Shown piece after piece: positions 27,025 to 36,364 of a DNA stretch of 36,364 nucleotides (position 1 is the first letter of the stretch; every line of letters begins with the position of its first letter). The notes under the pieces were generated by a model. It searched no databases and was not told the DNA's origin. It worked only from the letters and a program-made list of their open reading frames with translations. The position numbers were made by a program, and so were the translations under genes. This stretch comes from a bacterium (GTDB lineage Bacteria; CG2-30-53-67), in assembly GCA_919901565.1 (NCBI GenBank), contig CAKKPE010000081.1:1-36364 (forward strand). Reading direction: 5' to 3'.

Positions 27025-27912
27025 TCACGCTCTCGGATGAAATTTATCAAAAACCTTTTTGAGACGCTCTTTTGTGACGTGGGTATAGATCTGGGTCGTG
27101 GAGATATCCGAATGTCCGAGCATGAGTTGGACGGACCGGAGATCCGCTCCGTTTTCAAGGAGATGGCTGGCAAATGAATGCCTGAGTGTATGGGGGGATA
27201 TTTTTTTGCGGATGCCTGTCTGAATGGCATATTTTTTGATGATCTTGAAAAACCCCTGACGGCTCATACCCTTGCCGAACCGGTTGGGAAAGAGGAAGTC
27301 GCTGTGACGTGATTTCAGGATCCGGGGCCGGTCATGCAGCAGATAGTCCCTGATCCATGCCTGGGCTGAATCGCCCATGGGGACCAGGCGCTCTTTTCCC
27401 CCTTTTCCCATGGTGATCAGGTAGCCGACTTCGAGGTTGATGTCCGGGATCTTCAGGGAAACCAGTTCACTGACACGAAGCCCGGTGGCATAGAGGACCT
27501 CCAGCATGGTCCGGTCCCGTTTCCCAAGGGGTGTATCCGGGTCAGGTACATGCAGGAGGCTCTCCACTTCCCCGGGAGAAAGGGTCTGGGGAAGGTACTG
27601 GATTTTTTTTGGGGACTCGATGTTTTCGGCTGGATCGCTCTTTATCCGTCCTTCCTGGATCAGAAAACGGAAAAACATCCGGATGCTGACCAGTCTTCGC
27701 TGGACCGTGGAGACGTTAAGCCCTGACCGTTTGATATGGATGAGGTAGGAAAGGACCGCCCGGCGGTCTATGGCCCTGGATTCCCTGATCTCCTGATCCT
27801 TGAGGAAATTCATGAAATGCGTCAGGTCTCCCTGATAGGCGGCCACGGTATTGCCGGAGAGCCCTTTTTCGATCCGGATATAATGAAGAAATTCCTGGAT
27901 ATGCCGTTCCAT
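27025..27912 (-). CDS. xerD: XerD-type tyrosine recombinase
   Basis: A 295-residue site-specific recombinase. The N-terminal SAM-like DNA-binding domain spans about residues 1-85 ('FLHYIRIEKGLSGNTVAAYQGDL'). The catalytic domain has all six residues: R146 ('GLRVSEL'), K170 ('MGKGGK'), H241 and R244 ('HTLRHSF'), H267 ('LGHSD') and the nucleophile Y276 ('TQIYTHV'). Length and motifs match XerC/XerD, which resolve chromosome dimers at dif; XerD is favoured by overall resemblance. No dif-like or integron structure is seen next to it, and it sits with a housekeeping amidase, so it is more likely the cellular enzyme than a mobile integrase. Its start codon touches the stop codon of the amidase gene. 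Confidence 0.87.
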   Translation of the reverse strand: MERHIQEFLHYIRIEKGLSGNTVAAYQGDLTHFMNFLKDQEIRESRAIDRRAVLSYLIHIKRSGLNVSTVQRRLVSIRMFFRFLIQEGRIKSDPAENIESPKKIQYLPQTLSPGEVESLLHVPDPDTPLGKRDRTMLEVLYATGLRVSELVSLKIPDINLEVGYLITMGKGGKERLVPMGDSAQAWIRDYLLHDRPRILKSRHSDFLFPNRFGKGMSRQGFFKIIKKYAIQTGIRKKISPHTLRHSFASHLLENGADLRSVQLMLGHSDISTTQIYTHVTKERLKKVFDKFHPRA

Positions 27913-28704
27913 TCAGGACCTCTGTTTTTTTCTCTGCATGGGGATCTCTTTGCGGACGGTTTCAACTGTTCCTGGTCTGAGCACGGCCGAGACCACCTCG
28001 GCGTTCCTGCCTCCCCTGGCGATCACGGCACCCCTTGGGTCCACGATCAGGGAGTTCCCGCAGAACTGGTCCGTCCGGGTCCGTCCCACCCGGTTGCATC
28101 CGGCGACAAAGGCCTGGCTTTCGATGGCCCTGGCGATCAGCAGGGACTCCCATTGCGCGCACCGGGGGTCCGGCCACTGTGCGGGGACAATGAGGAGCCA
28201 TGCGCCCCGACCGCGTAAACCCGCAAAGTGTTCCGGGAACCGGAGGTCAAAACAGATGGCCAGTCCGATCCGGCCAAACGTCGTGGAAAAAATTTTTCTG
28301 GATCGGCCCGGCGTAAAGTAGCGGTCTTCATGCATGGGCGTGAAGAGATGCCCCTTCCGGTACCGTCCGATGATCCGGCCGTGGTCAACAACGGCCGCCG
28401 TGTTGTAGAGATGCCCTGAGTCTCTTTCAGGAAGGGATCCGATGATCACTGATGAGCAGGTTCTGGAAAGATCACAGATCTCCTTCAAGATATCCGGGGT
28501 CCTCCGGCTGAGTTCCAGCAGATCAGGGTATTCGAAACTCCCGGACCAGATCTCGGGAAGGACCAGTACCCCGGACTGCTGTTCTGCCGTACAGCGGACC
28601 AGGTCCAGGGTTTTTGCAATCCTTCTGTCCGGACCATGAAGCGAGGGATTGATCTGGAGCAGGCTGACATGGATCTCATTCGAAATGCGCGCCATAGGTG
28701 TCAT
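27913..28704 (-). CDS. Carbon-nitrogen hydrolase (nitrilase family, omega-amidase-like)
   Basis: A 263-residue nitrilase-superfamily enzyme with the catalytic triad E51 ('LPEIW'), K117 ('RKGHLF') and C151 ('AICFDLRFPE'). The 'CFDLRFPE' context is that of the Nit2/YafV omega-amidase branch, which hydrolyses alpha-ketoglutaramate or similar small amides. The substrate is not fixed by the motifs. Start: ATG at 28704, with another in frame at 28695; neither has a strong ribosome site. It is transcribed towards xerD, which begins at the next base, so the two form an operon. It is cytoplasmic with no signal peptide. Confidence 0.85.
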   Translation of the reverse strand: MTPMARISNEIHVSLLQINPSLHGPDRRIAKTLDLVRCTAEQQSGVLVLPEIWSGSFEYPDLLELSRRTPDILKEICDLSRTCSSVIIGSLPERDSGHLYNTAAVVDHGRIIGRYRKGHLFTPMHEDRYFTPGRSRKIFSTTFGRIGLAICFDLRFPEHFAGLRGRGAWLLIVPAQWPDPRCAQWESLLIARAIESQAFVAGCNRVGRTRTDQFCGNSLIVDPRGAVIARGGRNAEVVSAVLRPGTVETVRKEIPMQRKKQRS

Positions 28705-28792
28705 GGTAATGAATATTCATCGAGAAAGCAAGGGAAAGGTCAGGACCGAAACCATGGAAGGATCACGACAAACAAACGCCACCCGTATCCCG

Positions 28793-29203
28793 CTATTTAT
28801 AGCCACGTGGGTACTCCCAGCCGAAGCCCCACCGCCATGGCGTGGGCAGAAAAGGCGTACCGGCAAGTCGGACACTGTAGTAATAGAGTTTCGCGAGGAC
28901 ATTATGATCAGCATCGACGATGCATTGGCGGAATTCAAGATCAGCCGTCTTGCGTTCGTCGTATGTACCACCCGCCCAATACCGCACATCATGCGTATTA
29001 CAACATGCCGTGAAGTTAAAGCCCGGCGCTAAAGTGCATCCATCCACCATGCAGGCAGAGGGAGGGTTAGCGGTGATTTCCACGGTTTCCGCCACCAGCG
29101 TGGGATTACATGGCTTATATCCCGAGCATCCACTCACAAGAATCACGCCCAGAAATATCACAACTGATCTTCTAATCGCAACGGGCCCAGACCAACACAA
29201 CAT
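28793..29203 (-). CDS. Phospholipase A2-like lipoprotein
   Basis: A 136-residue protein with a lipoprotein signal peptide (lipobox 'LVSGC', Cys26). The mature part contains 'TACCNTHDVRYWAGG' (C67, C68, H71, D72), the CC-x2-HD active-site pattern of secretory phospholipase A2, where His-Asp activates water with calcium. A second Asp (D88 in 'TADLEFRQC') lies where the PLA2 helix-3 Asp would be. There are seven further cysteines or so, suited to disulfides. It may cut phospholipids in the envelope or outside the cell. Bacterial PLA2s are small and diverse, so the assignment is by motif only. The upstream intergenic region (29204-29446) shows no clear feature. Confidence 0.7.
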   Translation of the reverse strand: MLCWSGPVAIRRSVVIFLGVILVSGCSGYKPCNPTLVAETVEITANPPSACMVDGCTLAPGFNFTACCNTHDVRYWAGGTYDERKTADLEFRQCIVDADHNVLAKLYYYSVRLAGTPFLPTPWRWGFGWEYPRGYK

Positions 29204-29446
29204 TTGTTTACCGTTGACAGGCTATCAGTGGCATTGAATGATACGAATTTGCTTTCATATGCATGTCAGAAAAATACCCTACAATCGGATAGTTGTCAAG
29301 ATAGAGTATGCTTTGGCCAGGAATTGCTGTATCAAATCAGTATTATATGGTATATTTTTGTTGTGCGGCGTGCTTCCTGTAAACCGCAGCATAGGCGTCG
29401 TATCGGAATTGTGTCGTTCATCTGAAAATGCTTGTCGAGTCCAAAC

Positions 29447-30046
29447 ATGAGAATATCTATAACGAGTTGTTGCATTCTTGTCTGCAGCACGATCCTGCTT
29501 GCCGGATGCGCAATGCGCCCGGCCATACCACCCACACAGAGCCGGGCGCAGCCTTGCGACACATGCATTGCAGGCGTTGAAAATTTTGCAAAGGTATCTC
29601 CGGCACTCTGGCGCGGGGCACAACCGACAGAAGATGGATTTCGTAATTTGGAGCGCGCCGGTGTTAAGACTGTGATTGACCTTCGAGACAGCCACGACGA
29701 CTACGACGATTTCTCAATGCTGGGCGGAACGCACCTCAAATATCTACGCATACCAATGCACGCTTGGGATCCCGATCAAGCGCAACTCGTCGTGCTGATG
29801 AAAGTGATAGAGAGAGCACTAAAAGACCCGGACAGTTCGCCGGTGTTCGTTCATTGCGCAGCAGGCAAAGACCGTACTGGATACAGCATCGCGGTATATC
29901 GAATGGTGTTCGACGGATGGACCCCGGACGACGCAATCGTCGAGATGTACGACTTCCGCTTCAATGCCATATGGTTTCACAACCCGGCTTTCCTGAAGTC
30001 ACTTGACATCAAGAAAATTAAGGCGCTTATAAAACTGGCGCCGTAG
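29447..30046 (+). CDS. Dual-specificity/tyrosine phosphatase-like lipoprotein
   Basis: A 199-residue protein with a lipoprotein signal (lipobox 'LLAGC', Cys21) and a DSP/PTP fold. The phosphatase loop is 'HCAAGKDRTG' (H136, C137 nucleophile, R143), and 'LWRGAQPTEDGFRNLERAGVKTVIDLR' (about 54-80) is the usual N-terminal part of the bacterial DSP-like family. The general-acid Asp is probably D109 or D111 in 'HAWDPDQA'. Being lipid-anchored it acts outside the cytoplasm; phosphoinositides, polyphosphate or phosphoproteins are possible substrates, as in related bacterial enzymes. ATG 29447 is preferred to TTG 29432. It is divergent from the PLA2-like gene, and its stop lies 8 bp before the 87-bp repeat. 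Confidence 0.83.
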   Translation: MRISITSCCILVCSTILLAGCAMRPAIPPTQSRAQPCDTCIAGVENFAKVSPALWRGAQPTEDGFRNLERAGVKTVIDLRDSHDDYDDFSMLGGTHLKYLRIPMHAWDPDQAQLVVLMKVIERALKDPDSSPVFVHCAAGKDRTGYSIAVYRMVFDGWTPDDAIVEMYDFRFNAIWFHNPAFLKSLDIKKIKALIKLAP

Positions 30047-30053
30047 CAACAAC

Positions 30054-30140
30054 GCGCAAGGCATGTTGAGTATCCACCGAACAACAAGGACCCGGCATCT
30101 GTCTAAAAAGAGCGCTCCCAGCGCAGGCCAAGATACCCAG
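30054..30140. repeat. 87-bp direct repeat, copy A
   Basis: It matches 33201-33287 at 85 of 87 positions in the same orientation. It ends at the base before the stop codon of the AI-2E family gene. On the minus strand its last 38 bases correspond to the final codons of the PAP2 gene ('GYLGLRWERSF'), so this copy is a displaced PAP2 3' end. Confidence 0.9.
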
Positions 30141-31319
30141 CTAATCGCCGAGCAGCTCTCCGACCGGTTTCAGATCCTCCACCCGATCGCATACCGCCTT
30201 GATGATCATGATGATGGGCACGCCCAGCAATAACCCCCACACGCCCCACAACCAACCCCAGAACAGCACGCCGATGAAAACGACCAGCGGGTTCATCCGG
30301 CCTGCCCGGCCGGTAAGCCACGGCGTCAGCAAGTAACCTTCGAGACTCGTGATGAGCAACGAGATGCCGGCGACCAGAAGCGCCATACTGAATGTTCCGA
30401 ACTGGAGAAAGGCAACGAGCGAAGTGCCGCCGGTAACGATGACCGGACCGAGATAGGGGATGGTATTGAATACCCCGGCGGCGATTCCCCAGATTGCCGC
30501 ATTCTCCAGGCCGATCCAGAGAAACACGAGCCAGGTCACCACGCCTACCAGAACGCTGGTGAATATCTGGACCAGCAGATAACGTTGAATCTGCTCGGTA
30601 ATTTCATCCAGCACCCGGAGGGTGATTTTTTTCTCGCTCAGGGTGGGACCGGCAATCCTGACCATTTTGCGCCGGAACGTGTTACCCGAAACCATAATAA
30701 AATACGCCAGAAACAATACCATACTGAGCTGACCGGCAAACCCAATCGCCCCTTTGGTTCCCATCCAAAGGTAGTCTTTGATATTGAGTCGGGGCTTCTC
30801 GACCTGCACCCGCGTTACGCCGCTCGGCGCGGAAGGGGCCGGGGCACCTGCCGCGCTCGCCGCCCGCTCGATTTGGGTGGCGGCTTTTTGCACTTTCTCC
30901 ATCGTGCCTTCGGACATTCCCCGTTCTTTGAGCAGCGCCAGGCGGAACTTGTGCGCGGCTTTGGGCAGGGTTGCGAGCAGCTCACCAGCATCATCGCCGA
31001 GCGAATAAACCGCAGTGCCCGTCCCGCCCACGATAGCGAGCAGCAACACAGCGGCGCCAATGGCCCGCGGGATGTGCCATTTTTGCATAAGGTTAACGGG
31101 GGCAGAAAGCGCATAGCTGATCATCACACCCAGCATCAGCGGGATGAACACCGCCCTGGCCCAGTGCAGAGCGAAGACGACCGCGAGTACCGCCAGCACC
31201 GCGAGCGAAACACTGTACACATCCACTGGCATGCGCAGCACCGACACAGCCGGTTCCAGAGTTTCCACCCTGCTTTTGTCACGGACACCTTTTCCCCTGG
31301 GAGAGCGCTTTTTCTTCAT
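30141..31319 (-). CDS. AI-2E family (PerM-like) membrane permease
   Basis: A 392-residue polytopic protein of the UPF0118/AI-2E transporter family. It has a basic N-terminus, two helices near residues 35-75, a third near 85-105, a soluble insert (~110-185) rich in Ala/Pro, and then the conserved C-terminal block with 'YLLVQIFTSVLVGVVTWLVFLWIGLENAAIWGIAAGVFNTIPYLGPVI' and 'LEGYLLTPWLTGRAGRMNPLVVFIGVLFWGWLWGVWGLLLGVPIIMIIK'. Members export small molecules, peptides or ions; the name comes from proposed autoinducer-2 export and should not be taken literally. AGGATACAGG precedes the ATG. It is the last gene of the five-gene cassette inside the direct repeats. Confidence 0.88.
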   Translation of the reverse strand: MKKKRSPRGKGVRDKSRVETLEPAVSVLRMPVDVYSVSLAVLAVLAVVFALHWARAVFIPLMLGVMISYALSAPVNLMQKWHIPRAIGAAVLLLAIVGGTGTAVYSLGDDAGELLATLPKAAHKFRLALLKERGMSEGTMEKVQKAATQIERAASAAGAPAPSAPSGVTRVQVEKPRLNIKDYLWMGTKGAIGFAGQLSMVLFLAYFIMVSGNTFRRKMVRIAGPTLSEKKITLRVLDEITEQIQRYLLVQIFTSVLVGVVTWLVFLWIGLENAAIWGIAAGVFNTIPYLGPVIVTGGTSLVAFLQFGTFSMALLVAGISLLITSLEGYLLTPWLTGRAGRMNPLVVFIGVLFWGWLWGVWGLLLGVPIIMIIKAVCDRVEDLKPVGELLGD

Positions 31320-31398
31320 TCCTGTATCCTCTTTACACTATCTCCGCCTTGGAACTTTTCCTAATTTTTTGCTTTGCTTTTTCCCGCAACAGAAAGGT

Positions 31399-31752
31399 TT
31401 AACGGAAAAACTCCAGAGCAATGTCGGAGAGAGCGTTGACCACGGGTTGGGCAAACCGGCTGGTACGCGAGTGATGAGAGCTTGCACCCAAGAGAAACCC
31501 CAGTCCTACTCCTACCCCTAACGCGATAAGAATTGTCTTGCCCGGATTTTCGCTGCTATAACTCTTGGCCTGTTTATAAGTTTCGCTTGCCGCCTGGGCT
31601 GTTTTATCATAAACATCACTTACAGCCTGCTCCGCTTGCCCGTAAACCTCGGCGCCGCGTTCCAAGATGCTCTGAGCAGTCGTACTATCGCTGCCGGGTT
31701 CTCCTGCCATTTGCTGTTTGGGGGTCTTGTATTTGTTCTTTTCGATATCCAT
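31399..31752 (-). CDS. DUF883/YqjD-like membrane-anchored protein
   Basis: A 117-residue protein: a helical, Glu/Gln/Ala-rich first two-thirds with heptad character ('GAEVYGQAEQAVSDVYDKTAQAASETYKQAK'), then 'SENPGKTILIALGVGVGLGFLLG' (about 69-91) as a single membrane helix, and a short basic tail. This is the layout of ElaB/YqjD/YgaM (DUF883) proteins, which in E. coli anchor ribosomes to the inner membrane in stationary phase. AGGAGGATAAC precedes the ATG. A second protein of the same type lies at the other end of the cassette. Confidence 0.7.
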   Translation of the reverse strand: MDIEKNKYKTPKQQMAGEPGSDSTTAQSILERGAEVYGQAEQAVSDVYDKTAQAASETYKQAKSYSSENPGKTILIALGVGVGLGFLLGASSHHSRTSRFAQPVVNALSDIALEFFR

Positions 31753-31802
31753 GTTATCCTCCTAATAAAGATCAAGCGTTAACTGTTAATTTTAATAATA
31801 TT

Positions 31803-32279
31803 TTACGTATCCGCTCCCGGGCTAACGGTTGAACCACCTCCTGTCTGCGGTCGAGGCACGTCGCCACCGCTTGCCACAGATGTCGAGTTTGCATTCTTTA
31901 TCCAGCTGGCGGCAGCCTTCGTGGCAATACCTAGCAGGATCACCTTGATTAGGCCGGGGCCGTCAGCTCCGGCTCGCAGGCCACCGAGTGAATCGCGAGC
32001 TTCCTCGGCGATGGAACCCATGATTCGCTCCATGGGAGTGGTGCGTGTTATGAACATCCATGAGGCAAGATAGCCAAGGCCGGCGGCAGCCCCTATCGCC
32101 CAGTATGGAGAGTCCTTCACATATCCGCGCCAATCCAGTTTCTCTTTGATACGCTCGCCGATTTGCTCGACTGTCTGGGAAATGTTCTCTTCTTTATTAG
32201 CTATATCCTGACGTATATCTTCGGTACTGCGCTCGACATCCGCTTCCCTTGTGTTACTTAGATACGCTCTTTCAGACAT
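31803..32279 (-). CDS. DUF3618 family protein
   Basis: A 158-residue protein beginning with 'RSTEDIRQDIANKEENISQTVEQIGERIKEKLDWRGYV' (about residues 17-54), the DUF3618 signature. A short hydrophobic segment (~62-77) and a second, weaker one (~108-128) follow, then a Gly/Ser/Pro-rich tail. No biochemical function is known for DUF3618, but its genes recur beside YqjD/YqjE-like genes in many proteobacteria, as here. AAGGAGGAC precedes the ATG at 32279. Confidence 0.75.
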   Translation of the reverse strand: MSERAYLSNTREADVERSTEDIRQDIANKEENISQTVEQIGERIKEKLDWRGYVKDSPYWAIGAAAGLGYLASWMFITRTTPMERIMGSIAEEARDSLGGLRAGADGPGLIKVILLGIATKAAASWIKNANSTSVASGGDVPRPQTGGGSTVSPGADT

Positions 32280-32314
32280 TCCTTAGTCCTCCTTTTCAGT
32301 GTTTGTATTGTCTT

Positions 32315-32671
32315 CTATGTTTTATGGATCGATTTCTTCAATTGCTTATAGCCGATGAAGGCAATGACGACACCGATTAAAGCAAGCATCACTCCAGTGA
32401 CAAGCGCCGCAATGACGGGGGCCATATAATAAGTGAGTTCGATGATCAATGCAGCGCAAAGAGAGATGAATGCGGCAAAACTTATGACCACTCCTATCGC
32501 GACTGTTAAGACTCCGCTGCGAACAACCCTCACCTTTTCGCGAATTCCCTGGATCACGAGCTCAATTTCGTCGTGGAGCACCGCGGCTGAGTTGTTGGCA
32601 ATCTGTCCCAGCAGTTCAGTGAAAGATTCGCGTTGTTTTGTAGGGTCCTTGTTTACCACTATGTTGTTCAT
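32315..32671 (-). CDS. DUF1469/YqjE-like (holin-X superfamily) membrane protein
   Basis: A 118-residue protein: an N-terminal amphipathic helical stretch ('FTELLGQIANNSAAVLHDEIELV', about 17-39) and then two long membrane helices (about 52-77 and 82-108) separated by a short polar turn. This is the plan of the YqjE/holin-X family (DUF1469). Despite the phage-holin name, chromosomal members are envelope proteins next to YqjD. There is no phage gene in the window. Its gene lies between the DUF3618 and second DUF883-like genes, all on the minus strand. Confidence 0.72.
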   Translation of the reverse strand: MNNIVVNKDPTKQRESFTELLGQIANNSAAVLHDEIELVIQGIREKVRVVRSGVLTVAIGVVISFAAFISLCAALIIELTYYMAPVIAALVTGVMLALIGVVIAFIGYKQLKKSIHKT

Positions 32672-32688
32672 TGAGAAAAAGTTCTTTC

Positions 32689-33042
32689 TTACCTGCGTCG
32701 AAAAATAGATCCGATAATCAGGCCGACGGCTCCTGCTATCAAGAGGCTGCGTCCTGGATTCTGCCTGACGTATTCTCGGGCACTGGCATCTGCCTGCTCA
32801 TAGTCGAATTGCCGAACGTACTCGGCTGATTGGTCCAACCATTCGGATGCCTGCTTTCCGTACTGAGCTATGCCGGATGGCGCGTCCTGATTTGCCGCTT
32901 TTTCAGATAGAGCCCCGGCAACATTATGCAACTTATCAGCAATAATATTTTTGGCATTCTTAAAGCCGGTTGACTTACTCGAACCTTGGAACTCTGCCGC
33001 GGTATCTCCAGTTTCATCAACTGCCCGATTGTTTATTCCCAT
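32689..33042 (-). CDS. Second DUF883/YqjD-like membrane-anchored protein
   Basis: A 117-residue protein with a polar helical N-terminal two-thirds and a C-terminal 'REYVRQNPGRSLLIAGAVGLIIGSIFRRR' (about 89-117): the 'NPG' turn, a single membrane helix and an Arg cluster, which is the DUF883 hallmark. It is a divergent relative of the protein at the other end of the cassette. GAGGTG precedes the ATG at 33042. It is the first gene of the five-gene cassette; its promoter must lie in 33043-33200, where nothing stands out. Confidence 0.7.
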   Translation of the reverse strand: MGINNRAVDETGDTAAEFQGSSKSTGFKNAKNIIADKLHNVAGALSEKAANQDAPSGIAQYGKQASEWLDQSAEYVRQFDYEQADASAREYVRQNPGRSLLIAGAVGLIIGSIFRRR

Positions 33043-33200
33043 AGTTCACCTCATAAAAAGTTAAAGGGCGATGATTGCCGGCAATGACGAAGCCGCCCAG
33101 GCTTTCTTTTGCTTGCACCGGCAAATGGAAGTTTGATGTCATATATTTTGTAACAATAAAGTGTCTTTACCCGCATTACATGCCTGGAAACCGTAACAAT

Positions 33201-33287
33201 GCGCAAGGCATGTTGAGGATCCACCGAACAACAAGGACCCGGCATCTGTCTAAAAAGAGCGCTCCCAGCGCAGGCCAAGATAACCAG
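33201..33287. repeat. 87-bp direct repeat, copy B
   Basis: The partner of 30054-30140. Bases 33250-33287 are the last codons and stop of the PAP2 gene; the other 49 bp lie downstream of it. The DNA between the copies is exactly the five-gene cassette. Confidence 0.9.
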
Positions 33288-33789
33288 GGCCGATGACCGG
33301 TGCGATATGGGTCGCGTTCTGCGGCGTAACGAACAACTTGGATATGCCGTAAGACAGGGCAGTGCCGGCGATGATGTCGCGCCAGCGATGATGGTCGTTC
33401 TCGACTCGCACGTAACTTACGTACCCGACCAGCGCATAAGCAGGCAGGCCGTACTTCCAGCCGTAACGGTCCTGCAGGAACGCGGCACTTGAGGTCACAA
33501 ACGCCGCATGTCCGGACGGGAATGCATACTCGTTGCCGTTGGGACGTTCGCCCCAGCTGGTCCCGTTAAAGGCGACCCTGAGCGTAGTGGTTGCGATCAG
33601 ACTGACGATGTTGCTGCGAAGAAACTGATTCTTGCCCTCGTCATCGCCCTTGAAATAGGCGATGGCGTACGAAGTCAGTGGAAGAAGGCCCGTCACAATG
33701 TCAGCCGGCAAGTCACTGACCGCGGCGGCAATACCGGAATGAAGGCAAAGCAGGGCTACCATCGCGGCTGTAAGACTAAATCTTTTCAT
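33250..33789 (-). CDS. PAP2-superfamily phosphatase
   Basis: A 179-residue protein with a Sec-type N-terminal hydrophobic segment (1-23). Of the three PAP2 motifs, the second is exact ('FPSGHAAF', about residues 91-98) and the third is R-x5-H-x3-D ('RVENDHHRWRDIIAG'). The first (K-x6-RP) is degenerate: RP is there ('WGERP') but the Lys is replaced by Arg further up. It should remove phosphate from lipid phosphates such as phosphatidic acid or undecaprenyl diphosphate in the periplasm. Clear ribosome site: AAGGAG before the ATG at 33789. The 3' end is the sequence found again in repeat copy A, so this end may have been supplied by the inserted element. Confidence 0.83.
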   Translation of the reverse strand: MKRFSLTAAMVALLCLHSGIAAAVSDLPADIVTGLLPLTSYAIAYFKGDDEGKNQFLRSNIVSLIATTTLRVAFNGTSWGERPNGNEYAFPSGHAAFVTSSAAFLQDRYGWKYGLPAYALVGYVSYVRVENDHHRWRDIIAGTALSYGISKLFVTPQNATHIAPVIGPGYLGLRWERSF

Positions 33790-33866
33790 GAGGAACTCCT
33801 TAAATGAAATAAAGTTGGAGAAGAACGGTCGGCCCTGAATCGCCGGGCTGTTGTGGGCTCTCCGGG

Positions 33867-35399
33867 TTAAGGCCCGCCGCTGCTTTTGGGCCGCCAGTCG
33901 ACAGCGCCGGAGTGCGTCTGCCCCAGGTAGGCGTAGCCGATGCTGATGGCTCCGACCTTCTGATGGGTGTCAGGGAGATCGGTATATTGAGCATCGCGCT
34001 GGGATGTCACGTATTTGAGCGTGATGCCGTGGAGGTTGTAGATGCGCACCGTAAGCGATACGTCGACGCGTATGATATTCTCATTTCCCCCGTTCTCGTC
34101 GGAGGCGGTGTCGCTGACGTAGTAGTCTCGCCCCGTCATGTCGAGGGAGACGCGATCACTGAAGATGAGGTTCAGGGCGAGCAAGCCCTGCGGCGTAACA
34201 CCATTGTGATAGTCTCGCTCACCGACGCCACGAATAGTGCCGGCCGAGCCATAACCGACGCCGGCGAGTACCGAACCCTGCAGTGCCAACATGGGTGAGA
34301 GCCACCATTGAGCCGTGGTGCCGAGCGCAGCCGCAGTGGTGGAGATGCGAAAGATCTGCGGCGCGATGTAGTCGTAAGTGCCGTAAAGACCCCACACGCC
34401 GCGGTAGTTGTCGCCCAACGAGTAGTCGGTTCCGCAGAGCAGGCCGCGGGTGATGACGTTCTCTAAGGCGTTGCTGCTGGCGGCGGTGAACTGGAAGTGG
34501 AAGTAGTCGAACGGGCGTGTGTAATGATACCCGGGTTTGCCGGGAAGCCCATAGGCGATGGTGAAGTTAGCAACCGCCTCACCAACCTTGTAGCTCTGCG
34601 GAATGGACGGCTCTTCCGCATTCCGGTTCACATTCACGTCCGAGCTCACGGTCGAGTTGAAGTTCACGCCCAGATCTAAGCGCGTGTAGACCGCTGGATT
34701 GTTACTCCGGAACACTCCGTCGAAACGGTCACCGAAAGCCAGCCGGTTGAAACCGGTGGACGGCGAAATCGCGGCTGCGCCGAGTTCGCGCCAGAATCCG
34801 GGCCTTCCGCCCTCGCCGCTTTCAAGCAAGAGGCTCGCCATGCGAAACAGCGGTTCACCAAGGAAGCTGCCCCCAAATCCGGTCGTGAACTGGTCGTTGA
34901 TCGAGGGCTTGGTGGTTTCGCCCGCCACTTCCCAGGCCGCGCTGCCCAATATGGTGTAGGCCGACGATTCCCAGTAACCGAGGCCGGCTGATCGGGCGAA
35001 GCCGTGATACATCGAACCCTGATAGGGATGCGCGAACTGGTTGATGGCAAACGGGTCGCTGTCGTAGACCCAATCACCGGTGAAGTTCGTCTTGATGGAG
35101 GAGAGGGTGGAATCGTAAACAGAGGAACCGGAGAACCTGCGATCGTACTGGTTCAGCAGGAAATCGAATAGAAATATGTCGGCAGCCGGGATGAGGTAGT
35201 CCTTGCCGTCTCCAATTCCCCAGTTCATCACCGGCTTCGGCTTGTCGTCGGCGAATGCGGTCGGCGCGCGTTGCTGCTCTTTGGTATCGAGAGCGGGGTC
35301 TTCTTCGGCAAAAACGGCGCCCGGAGTCATCAAGGCAAGCGAGAAAACAGTAGCAACGAGCATACAGCGGATCGCGTGTTCTATCTGGGTTAATGTCAT
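33867..35399 (-). CDS. DUF3943 outer-membrane-like protein
   Basis: A 510-residue protein with a signal peptide (about residues 1-31, ending 'GAVFA'). Its core shows the DUF3943 pattern: 'DPFAINQFAHPYQGSMYHGFARSAGLGYWESSAYTILGSAAWEVAGETTKPSINDQ' and 'GFGGSFLGEPLFRMASLLLE' (about 115-195). Many alternating hydrophobic/polar strands follow, ending in a predicted beta strand. DUF3943 proteins have no proven function, but they look like outer-membrane or periplasmic beta proteins. It is 77 bp upstream of the PAP2 gene on the same strand, so both may be co-transcribed; a lipid- or envelope-related role is only suggested by that neighbour. Confidence 0.8.
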   Translation of the reverse strand: MTLTQIEHAIRCMLVATVFSLALMTPGAVFAEEDPALDTKEQQRAPTAFADDKPKPVMNWGIGDGKDYLIPAADIFLFDFLLNQYDRRFSGSSVYDSTLSSIKTNFTGDWVYDSDPFAINQFAHPYQGSMYHGFARSAGLGYWESSAYTILGSAAWEVAGETTKPSINDQFTTGFGGSFLGEPLFRMASLLLESGEGGRPGFWRELGAAAISPSTGFNRLAFGDRFDGVFRSNNPAVYTRLDLGVNFNSTVSSDVNVNRNAEEPSIPQSYKVGEAVANFTIAYGLPGKPGYHYTRPFDYFHFQFTAASSNALENVITRGLLCGTDYSLGDNYRGVWGLYGTYDYIAPQIFRISTTAAALGTTAQWWLSPMLALQGSVLAGVGYGSAGTIRGVGERDYHNGVTPQGLLALNLIFSDRVSLDMTGRDYYVSDTASDENGGNENIIRVDVSLTVRIYNLHGITLKYVTSQRDAQYTDLPDTHQKVGAISIGYAYLGQTHSGAVDWRPKSSGGP

Positions 35400-35527
35400 G
35401 GCAAATTGAATAGCAAGATGTGTGCCAGAACTGTTGTTGGCAGGACAGGAGTTTCTATGATGTTGGAAACATTGAAATTTCAGTGAGGACGACGATGGTG
35501 GAATGATCCTGTGAAAGGCGCCGCCTT

Positions 35528-35558
35528 CTGATATATCAGGAGTCTCCTGATATATCAG
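35528..35558. repeat. Paired 12-bp palindromes upstream of the DUF3943 gene
   Basis: CTGATATATCAG occurs at 35528-35539 and 35547-35558, separated by GAGTCTC. Each copy is itself a perfect palindrome and the whole 31 bp is one larger palindrome. It lies ~130 bp before the DUF3943 start; a T-rich stretch follows on the plus strand. It may be a repressor site pair or a terminator. The rest of the gap 35400-35773 shows no gene I can support. Confidence 0.55.
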
Positions 35559-35773
35559 GCATTTTTCTTATTTCTTTGGATGCCCAGTCTTTGCATCCTC
35601 CTGCAAAAAAGTAGAGTACGACATACAAGAAGGCCAGCACTCAATGACACTTCTGACTGGGCAGACCATCCGTCATAAAATGGCTCACCCCGATAATATA
35701 TGAAAAGCATATCACGGGGCAAGCCGACGACCTCCGGCAAGGAATTCTTATCAATTCAATAAATTACGCCTGA

Positions 35774-36364
35774 TTAGGCTTTCTTGAACCTTTTCCTAAA
35801 TGCCACCAATCCAGCCAGTCCAGAGCCAAGGAGGAGCATGGTTGAGGGTTCCGGGACCGGTGCCGCGCTGCCGCCGCTGAAGCCGTAGCTGCCGAAGTCG
35901 GAGCGTCCGCTACCGAAGTCTTCGGCGGTGTTATTGTTGGAGATAAGATTGTCTGTCAACGTCACTGCCCCAGTTAGAGCGAAGGCTCTCCCGCACAGAA
36001 TCTCTGCCCGAGGATCAAGGCCAACACTCGCAAGAGCAAGAATATTGCCTGCGAAGATAGTGTCTGTACCCAGAGTCGCAGAACTTCCGACCTGCCAATA
36101 CACACCGCTAAGTGAATTCCCATTGATGACGTTAACAGAAGAGCTGCTTGCGGTCGTGAGTGTACTCCCTATCTGGAAAATGAAGTCCGCATTGGGATTG
36201 CCCTGGAAATCGAGCGTGAGTGCTCCGGTCAACTGCGCCGTCGAGTCAAAATGATAGACACCCGGCGTGAGCGTGGTGTATCCCGCTGAACCCAGGACAA
36301 CACCAGTATAGTCGTAAACGAACGGCAAGCCTGCTATCGTATTGTACGCAGTCGTTGCATCCGC
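35774..36364 (-). CDS. DUF3494 ice-binding-like protein with PEP-CTERM signal, C-terminal part
   Basis: The frame is open to the right edge, so the N-terminus lies outside the window; 196 residues are seen. The visible part has the DUF3494 pattern: 'TLTPGVYHFDSTAQLTGALTLDFQGNPNADFIFQIGSTLTTASSS', 'GVYWQVGSSATLGTDTIFAGNILA' and 'GRAFALTGAVTLTDN'. This is a beta-solenoid found in bacterial ice-binding or adhesin proteins. The C-terminus is a PEP-CTERM sorting signal: 'VPEPSTMLLLGSGLAGLVAFRKRFKK' (Pro-Glu-Pro, a hydrophobic helix, basic tail). The host should therefore own an exosortase. Ice binding is not certain, since the fold is shared by other surface proteins. Confidence 0.88.
   Translation of the reverse strand, partial: ADATTAYNTIAGLPFVYDYTGVVLGSAGYTTLTPGVYHFDSTAQLTGALTLDFQGNPNADFIFQIGSTLTTASSSSVNVINGNSLSGVYWQVGSSATLGTDTIFAGNILALASVGLDPRAEILCGRAFALTGAVTLTDNLISNNNTAEDFGSGRSDFGSYGFSGGSAAPVPEPSTMLLLGSGLAGLVAFRKRFKKA

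Follow-up and report, generated by a model that had tools for sequence, protein, structure and literature searches.

Direct repeats at the 3′ end of a PAP2 gene flank a five-gene envelope cassette and may be the product of ordinary rearrangement

How did five small envelope genes come to lie between two copies of the 3′ end of a PAP2-family phosphatase gene? This question is raised by a bacterial contig (CAKKPE010000081.1) whose 36,364 nucleotides make up the window analysed here. The preliminary description reported flanking repeats of 87 bp that agree at 85 positions, which is correct as far as it goes; the similarity reaches six bases further left, giving direct repeats of 93 bp (copy A, 30048-30140; copy B, 33195-33287; both on the minus strand) that are identical at 90 of 93 positions with a spacing of 3147. 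Beyond these 93 bp the flanks are no more similar than shuffled sequence, and a further extension of the repeat is not significant. The pair is far beyond chance: within the same 10 kb, all other families of direct repeats that reach 20 nt are only 20-27 nt long, at 70-83% identity. Copies A and B are the only two in the whole genome, with the next matches being 15-19 nt and at chance level, and a dispersed element was rejected on this count.

The two copies differ in what they are attached to. The PAP2 gene (33250-33789, minus strand; Pfam PF01569, E 3.4e-8) ends within copy B, where 33250-33287 encodes its last 11 residues and stop (GYLGLRWERSF*) and is followed by 55 bp of downstream DNA. 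In copy A, the same last 11 codons and stop stand as orphans beside the stop of an AI-2E family permease, with one synonymous change (GGG for GGT) and 55 bp beyond, an arrangement that had been described before and that we confirmed on the minus strand. Copy A occupies the entire gap between two convergent stops: that of a tyrosine/dual-specificity-type phosphatase gene (29432-30046, plus strand) reaches 30046 on one side, and that of the permease begins at 30141 on the other. A C-terminus of APVIGPxFLGLRWxRSF, or a near variant of it, is common to 21 orthologous PAP2 proteins encoded in genomes of the class to which the deltaproteobacterial MAG LH_M62 belongs, and it is found in the window as well. 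Because this C-terminus is conserved, the orthologue comparison shows copy B to be the original PAP2 3′ end and copy A a derived, partial duplicate of 93 bp. Similarity to the orthologous loci ends at about the PAP2 stop codon, and the 55 noncoding bases of the repeat match none of the 21.

The cassette itself was also sought beside other PAP2 genes, without success: the repeat, the four-gene block described below and the permease were found at 0 of the 21 orthologous loci within 1.5 kb downstream of PAP2, and no other genome examined has PAP2 and the cassette together at one place. Direct scans of genome-contig and viral-contig collections returned no close PAP2 relatives, and PAP2 genes on Vibrio plasmids (37-42% identity) were set aside, as their neighbourhoods differ. 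A DUF3943 gene (33867-35399, minus strand) precedes PAP2 here and often neighbours it in relatives; none was found in the order of genome G098 by a search that had no positive control. The last PAP2 codons also overlap a terminator-like hairpin, GCGCTGGGAGCGC followed by TCTTTTT (33259-33271, minus strand; -6.6 kcal/mol), which recurs in copy A at 30112-30124. Among PAP2 orthologues (L117-L168), the conserved LRWxRSF codons that correspond to window positions 33259-33271 can often fold into a GCGCTGGCAGCGC hairpin, with a T-rich stretch after it at the stop codon, and it is possible that this hairpin is a terminator within the coding end.

Between the repeats lie five same-strand open reading frames and no recombinase or integrase gene, such as an island with its own integrase would carry; the earlier count of five small-envelope genes without an integrase, in 3060 bp between the coordinates first given, thus stands. 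Four of the genes, all on the minus strand, form a block: a DUF883/YqjD-like small membrane protein (32689-33042; weak Pfam DUF883_C), a YqjE-like protein of the Phage_holin_3_6 family (32315-32671; PF07332, E 1e-13), a DUF3618/DUF883-like protein (31803-32279; orthologues at 51-66% identity) and a final YqjD-like glycine-zipper protein (31399-31752; orthologues at 53-73% identity). Orthologues back each of these assignments, and the Pfam matches of the third and fourth genes are weak; Pfam names below cut-off for the small cassette proteins were disregarded. Five other genomes keep this order, their proteins being roughly 40-73% identical to those of the window, with DNA similarity limited to about window positions 31398-33055. 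As four of these five genomes have a distant AI-2E-family gene close by, at about 23-27% identity to the window permease, the block and an AI-2E transporter make up a recurring functional grouping. The five-gene operon probably encodes membrane-anchored, stress-related YqjD/YqjE-type proteins together with a permease.

The fifth gene, the AI-2E permease (30141-31319, minus strand; PF01594, E 4e-46), has a separate distribution. Its relatives at 69-79% protein identity occur in MAGs named Thermodesulfovibrionia, Nitrospirae, Syntrophales, Deltaproteobacteria and others and do not have the block alongside; the spread of this subfamily over several phyla, at 65-79% identity, suggests frequent horizontal transfer. 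At two loci (L041, in genome G102 of the MAG LH_M62, and L123), a few kilobases without the cassette separate this permease from DUF3943-PAP2, and a homologue of the window gene at 28793-29203 adjoins the PAP2 end. Comparison with these genomes shows the cassette to be a composite of two modules known elsewhere, the four-gene block and the permease. The permease orthologues share the last residues and the stop of the window gene, so that its C-terminus (GELLGD and stop) is native and only the native downstream sequence is missing. Four of the closest relatives (L037-L040) have related sequence after the stop (TAGCGCA... / TAGCGCAGG... and variants), whereas in the window this usual downstream DNA is replaced, straight after the TAG, by PAP2 3′ sequence. 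Set against these relatives, the join between the permease stop and copy A is abrupt and illegitimate, with at most about one shared base.

The surroundings of the repeats are themselves unusual. In a same-genus genome, helix-turn-helix, MerR-like, XerD and carbon-nitrogen hydrolase genes are found in the same order as in the window, and this synteny ends at 28704. The synteny break and the tetranucleotide composition mark 28705-36364, up to the contig end, as a lineage-specific region that was probably acquired, with a tetranucleotide distance from the backbone greater than that of all 11 backbone windows of equal length; the own-family genomes examined have no PAP2, permease or DUF3618-like gene at the thresholds used. 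As same-genus synteny ends at 28.7 kb, the repeats fall inside this larger region, and the cassette is probably nested in acquired DNA that measures at least 7.6 kb and runs off the contig at its far side. Near its start, a small lipoprotein-like gene (28793-29203, minus strand) encodes a small secreted protein with sub-threshold similarity to group XII phospholipase A2, and at least five other genomes carry a homologue next to this same PAP2 gene. A nearly perfect palindrome, TCTGATATATCAGGAGTCTCCTGATATATCAGG, with a T-rich tail behind it, occupies 35527-35559. In addition, a REP/MITE-like inverted repeat, roughly 130 bp long (GATGAGACCGCCCTACGACCCTCTCGGTACGTCACCATATTTACGAACAGG... with a partner arm), is dispersed over about a dozen places in the own and the same-genus genome (G000 contigs C128, C107, C115, C14, C117, C89, C27 and others; G001 contig C140, L149:1169-1235).

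On balance, we think that the repeats are probably the product of ordinary rearrangement in an acquired region of stress and lipid genes, and not the ends of an active island; most likely they are what remains of a tandem duplication followed by deletion, or some other scar of ordinary recombination. This upholds the duplication that the preliminary description had offered as its second possibility: one copy is the native PAP2 end and the other, a partial duplicate, meets the permease stop at an illegitimate breakpoint, as expected of a tandem-duplication remnant. The repeat is confined to this locus and the cassette has no recombinase, both of which speak for rearrangement. In a first step, the segment that begins in the last PAP2 codons and reaches the permease stop would have been duplicated in tandem, through a junction sharing at most about 1 bp, to give repeat-block-permease-repeat-block-permease. 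In a second step, most of the second unit would have been deleted, leaving repeat-block-permease-repeat beside the phosphatase gene, and copy A may have been kept because it gives the five-gene operon a terminator-like hairpin at its end. Against this sequence of events, two steps are needed and the position of the second breakpoint at the phosphatase stop is a coincidence. The permease and PAP2 each occur once in the genome at the thresholds used, with no complete duplicated unit seen, and neither the full tandem duplication nor a pre-event arrangement was found among the genomes examined.

The geometry of the repeats fits integration, by site-specific or by homologous recombination, as well as it fits this rearrangement. 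In a Campbell-type homologous integration, a circle or concatemer bearing the cassette and a PAP2 3′ end of slightly different sequence would have undergone one crossover at the resident PAP2 3′ end, leaving flanking repeats. Homologous recombination may need no more than 93 bp, differences between donor and recipient could account for the three mismatches, and both modules are present in the group with the closest PAP2 orthologues. However, such a donor would need a permease stop already abutting a PAP2 3′ end, and none was found, which leaves this route unlikely.

Somewhat less probable still is the passenger island mobilised in trans, the first possibility of the preliminary description, which the analysis did not support. 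The locus would then resemble CIMEs, elements that have lost their integration and transfer genes and retain attL and attR (PMC5704250): a 3-kb cassette with the PAP2 3′ end as attachment site and its integrase encoded elsewhere, copies B and A being attL and attR. The flanking direct repeats have this form, with a gene 3′ end restored on one side and a displaced copy on the other; they are 97% identical, and the whole region is foreign in composition. Yet the cassette lacks an integrase, and the repeat is absent from the plasmid, phage and viral-contig collections and from the rest of the genome, so it does not appear to be the core of a known integration site. The PAP2 end serves as a site in 0 of 21 relatives, and the foreign nature of the wider region means that PAP2 is no conserved target of the host. 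The nearby XerD (27025-27912) is an XerD equivalog, with 85% identity and conserved synteny in the same genus, and by these marks a housekeeping gene. No dif-like site was seen in the repeat, where the best dif/XerCD score, 14 of 28, falls below chance matches elsewhere in the window. A tRNA-linked island was rejected, as no tRNA was found, and viral contigs yielded no AI-2E genes. An empty site was not seen; the same-genus and same-family genomes examined have no PAP2 at the thresholds used, and the 21 orthologous loci are without the cassette but have unrelated flanks.

A further reading, in which a second copy of the PAP2 terminator segment was placed behind the permease and retained as the operon end, would suit the hairpin and T-run in both copies and the position of copy A exactly between convergent genes. 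It is very improbable as a full account, as the hairpin is weak and mainly a consequence of conserved codons, and reuse would explain retention, not origin. Most doubtful of all is an assembly artefact, for although this metagenome-assembled genome is in 160 contigs and is the single representative of the arrangement, 3 positions distinguish the copies, and each has unique sequence around it on one and the same contig.

If rearrangement is the correct explanation, the locus serves as a warning: direct repeats at the 3′ end of a gene hint at an island, yet ordinary rearrangement can produce an identical pattern, and the two are easier to separate when the native gene end and the distant junction are compared across relatives. 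If the cassette is a true trans-mobilised element, it would be unusually small and would carry a cargo of envelope-stress genes.

Like CIMEs, the locus is a segment without recombination or transfer genes between direct repeats, one of which is a gene 3′ end; unlike them, it has no related ICE or IME and no matching att site, is only 3 kb long, carries ordinary envelope cargo and has no empty site that we could see. Genomic islands at the 3′ ends of protein genes, namely SGI1 at trmE and the dusA islands, are among those treated in PMC8409611. The target here is likewise the 3′ end of a coding gene. Islands of the SGI1 and dusA type carry their own integrase and mobilisation functions, in contrast to the present cassette, which has neither. 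Tandem duplication with remodelling or deletion is known from bacterial gene amplification, and our literature search on remodelled tandem duplications found nothing usable on bacteria. The direct repeats and the abrupt illegitimate junction at the permease stop are as in such events, but the duplicated unit is no longer present twice, and the duplication step is therefore inferred. Finally, the block resembles stress clusters of the YqjD/YqjE/ElaB type in its small glycine-zipper and holin-III-like membrane proteins and their conserved order; E. coli YqjD is treated in the literature in connection with ribosome hibernation, and ElaB is described as C-tail anchored (PMC10746276, PMC6389858). 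Unlike in the other genomes with this block, a different AI-2E subfamily, at about 23-27% identity, is joined to it here.
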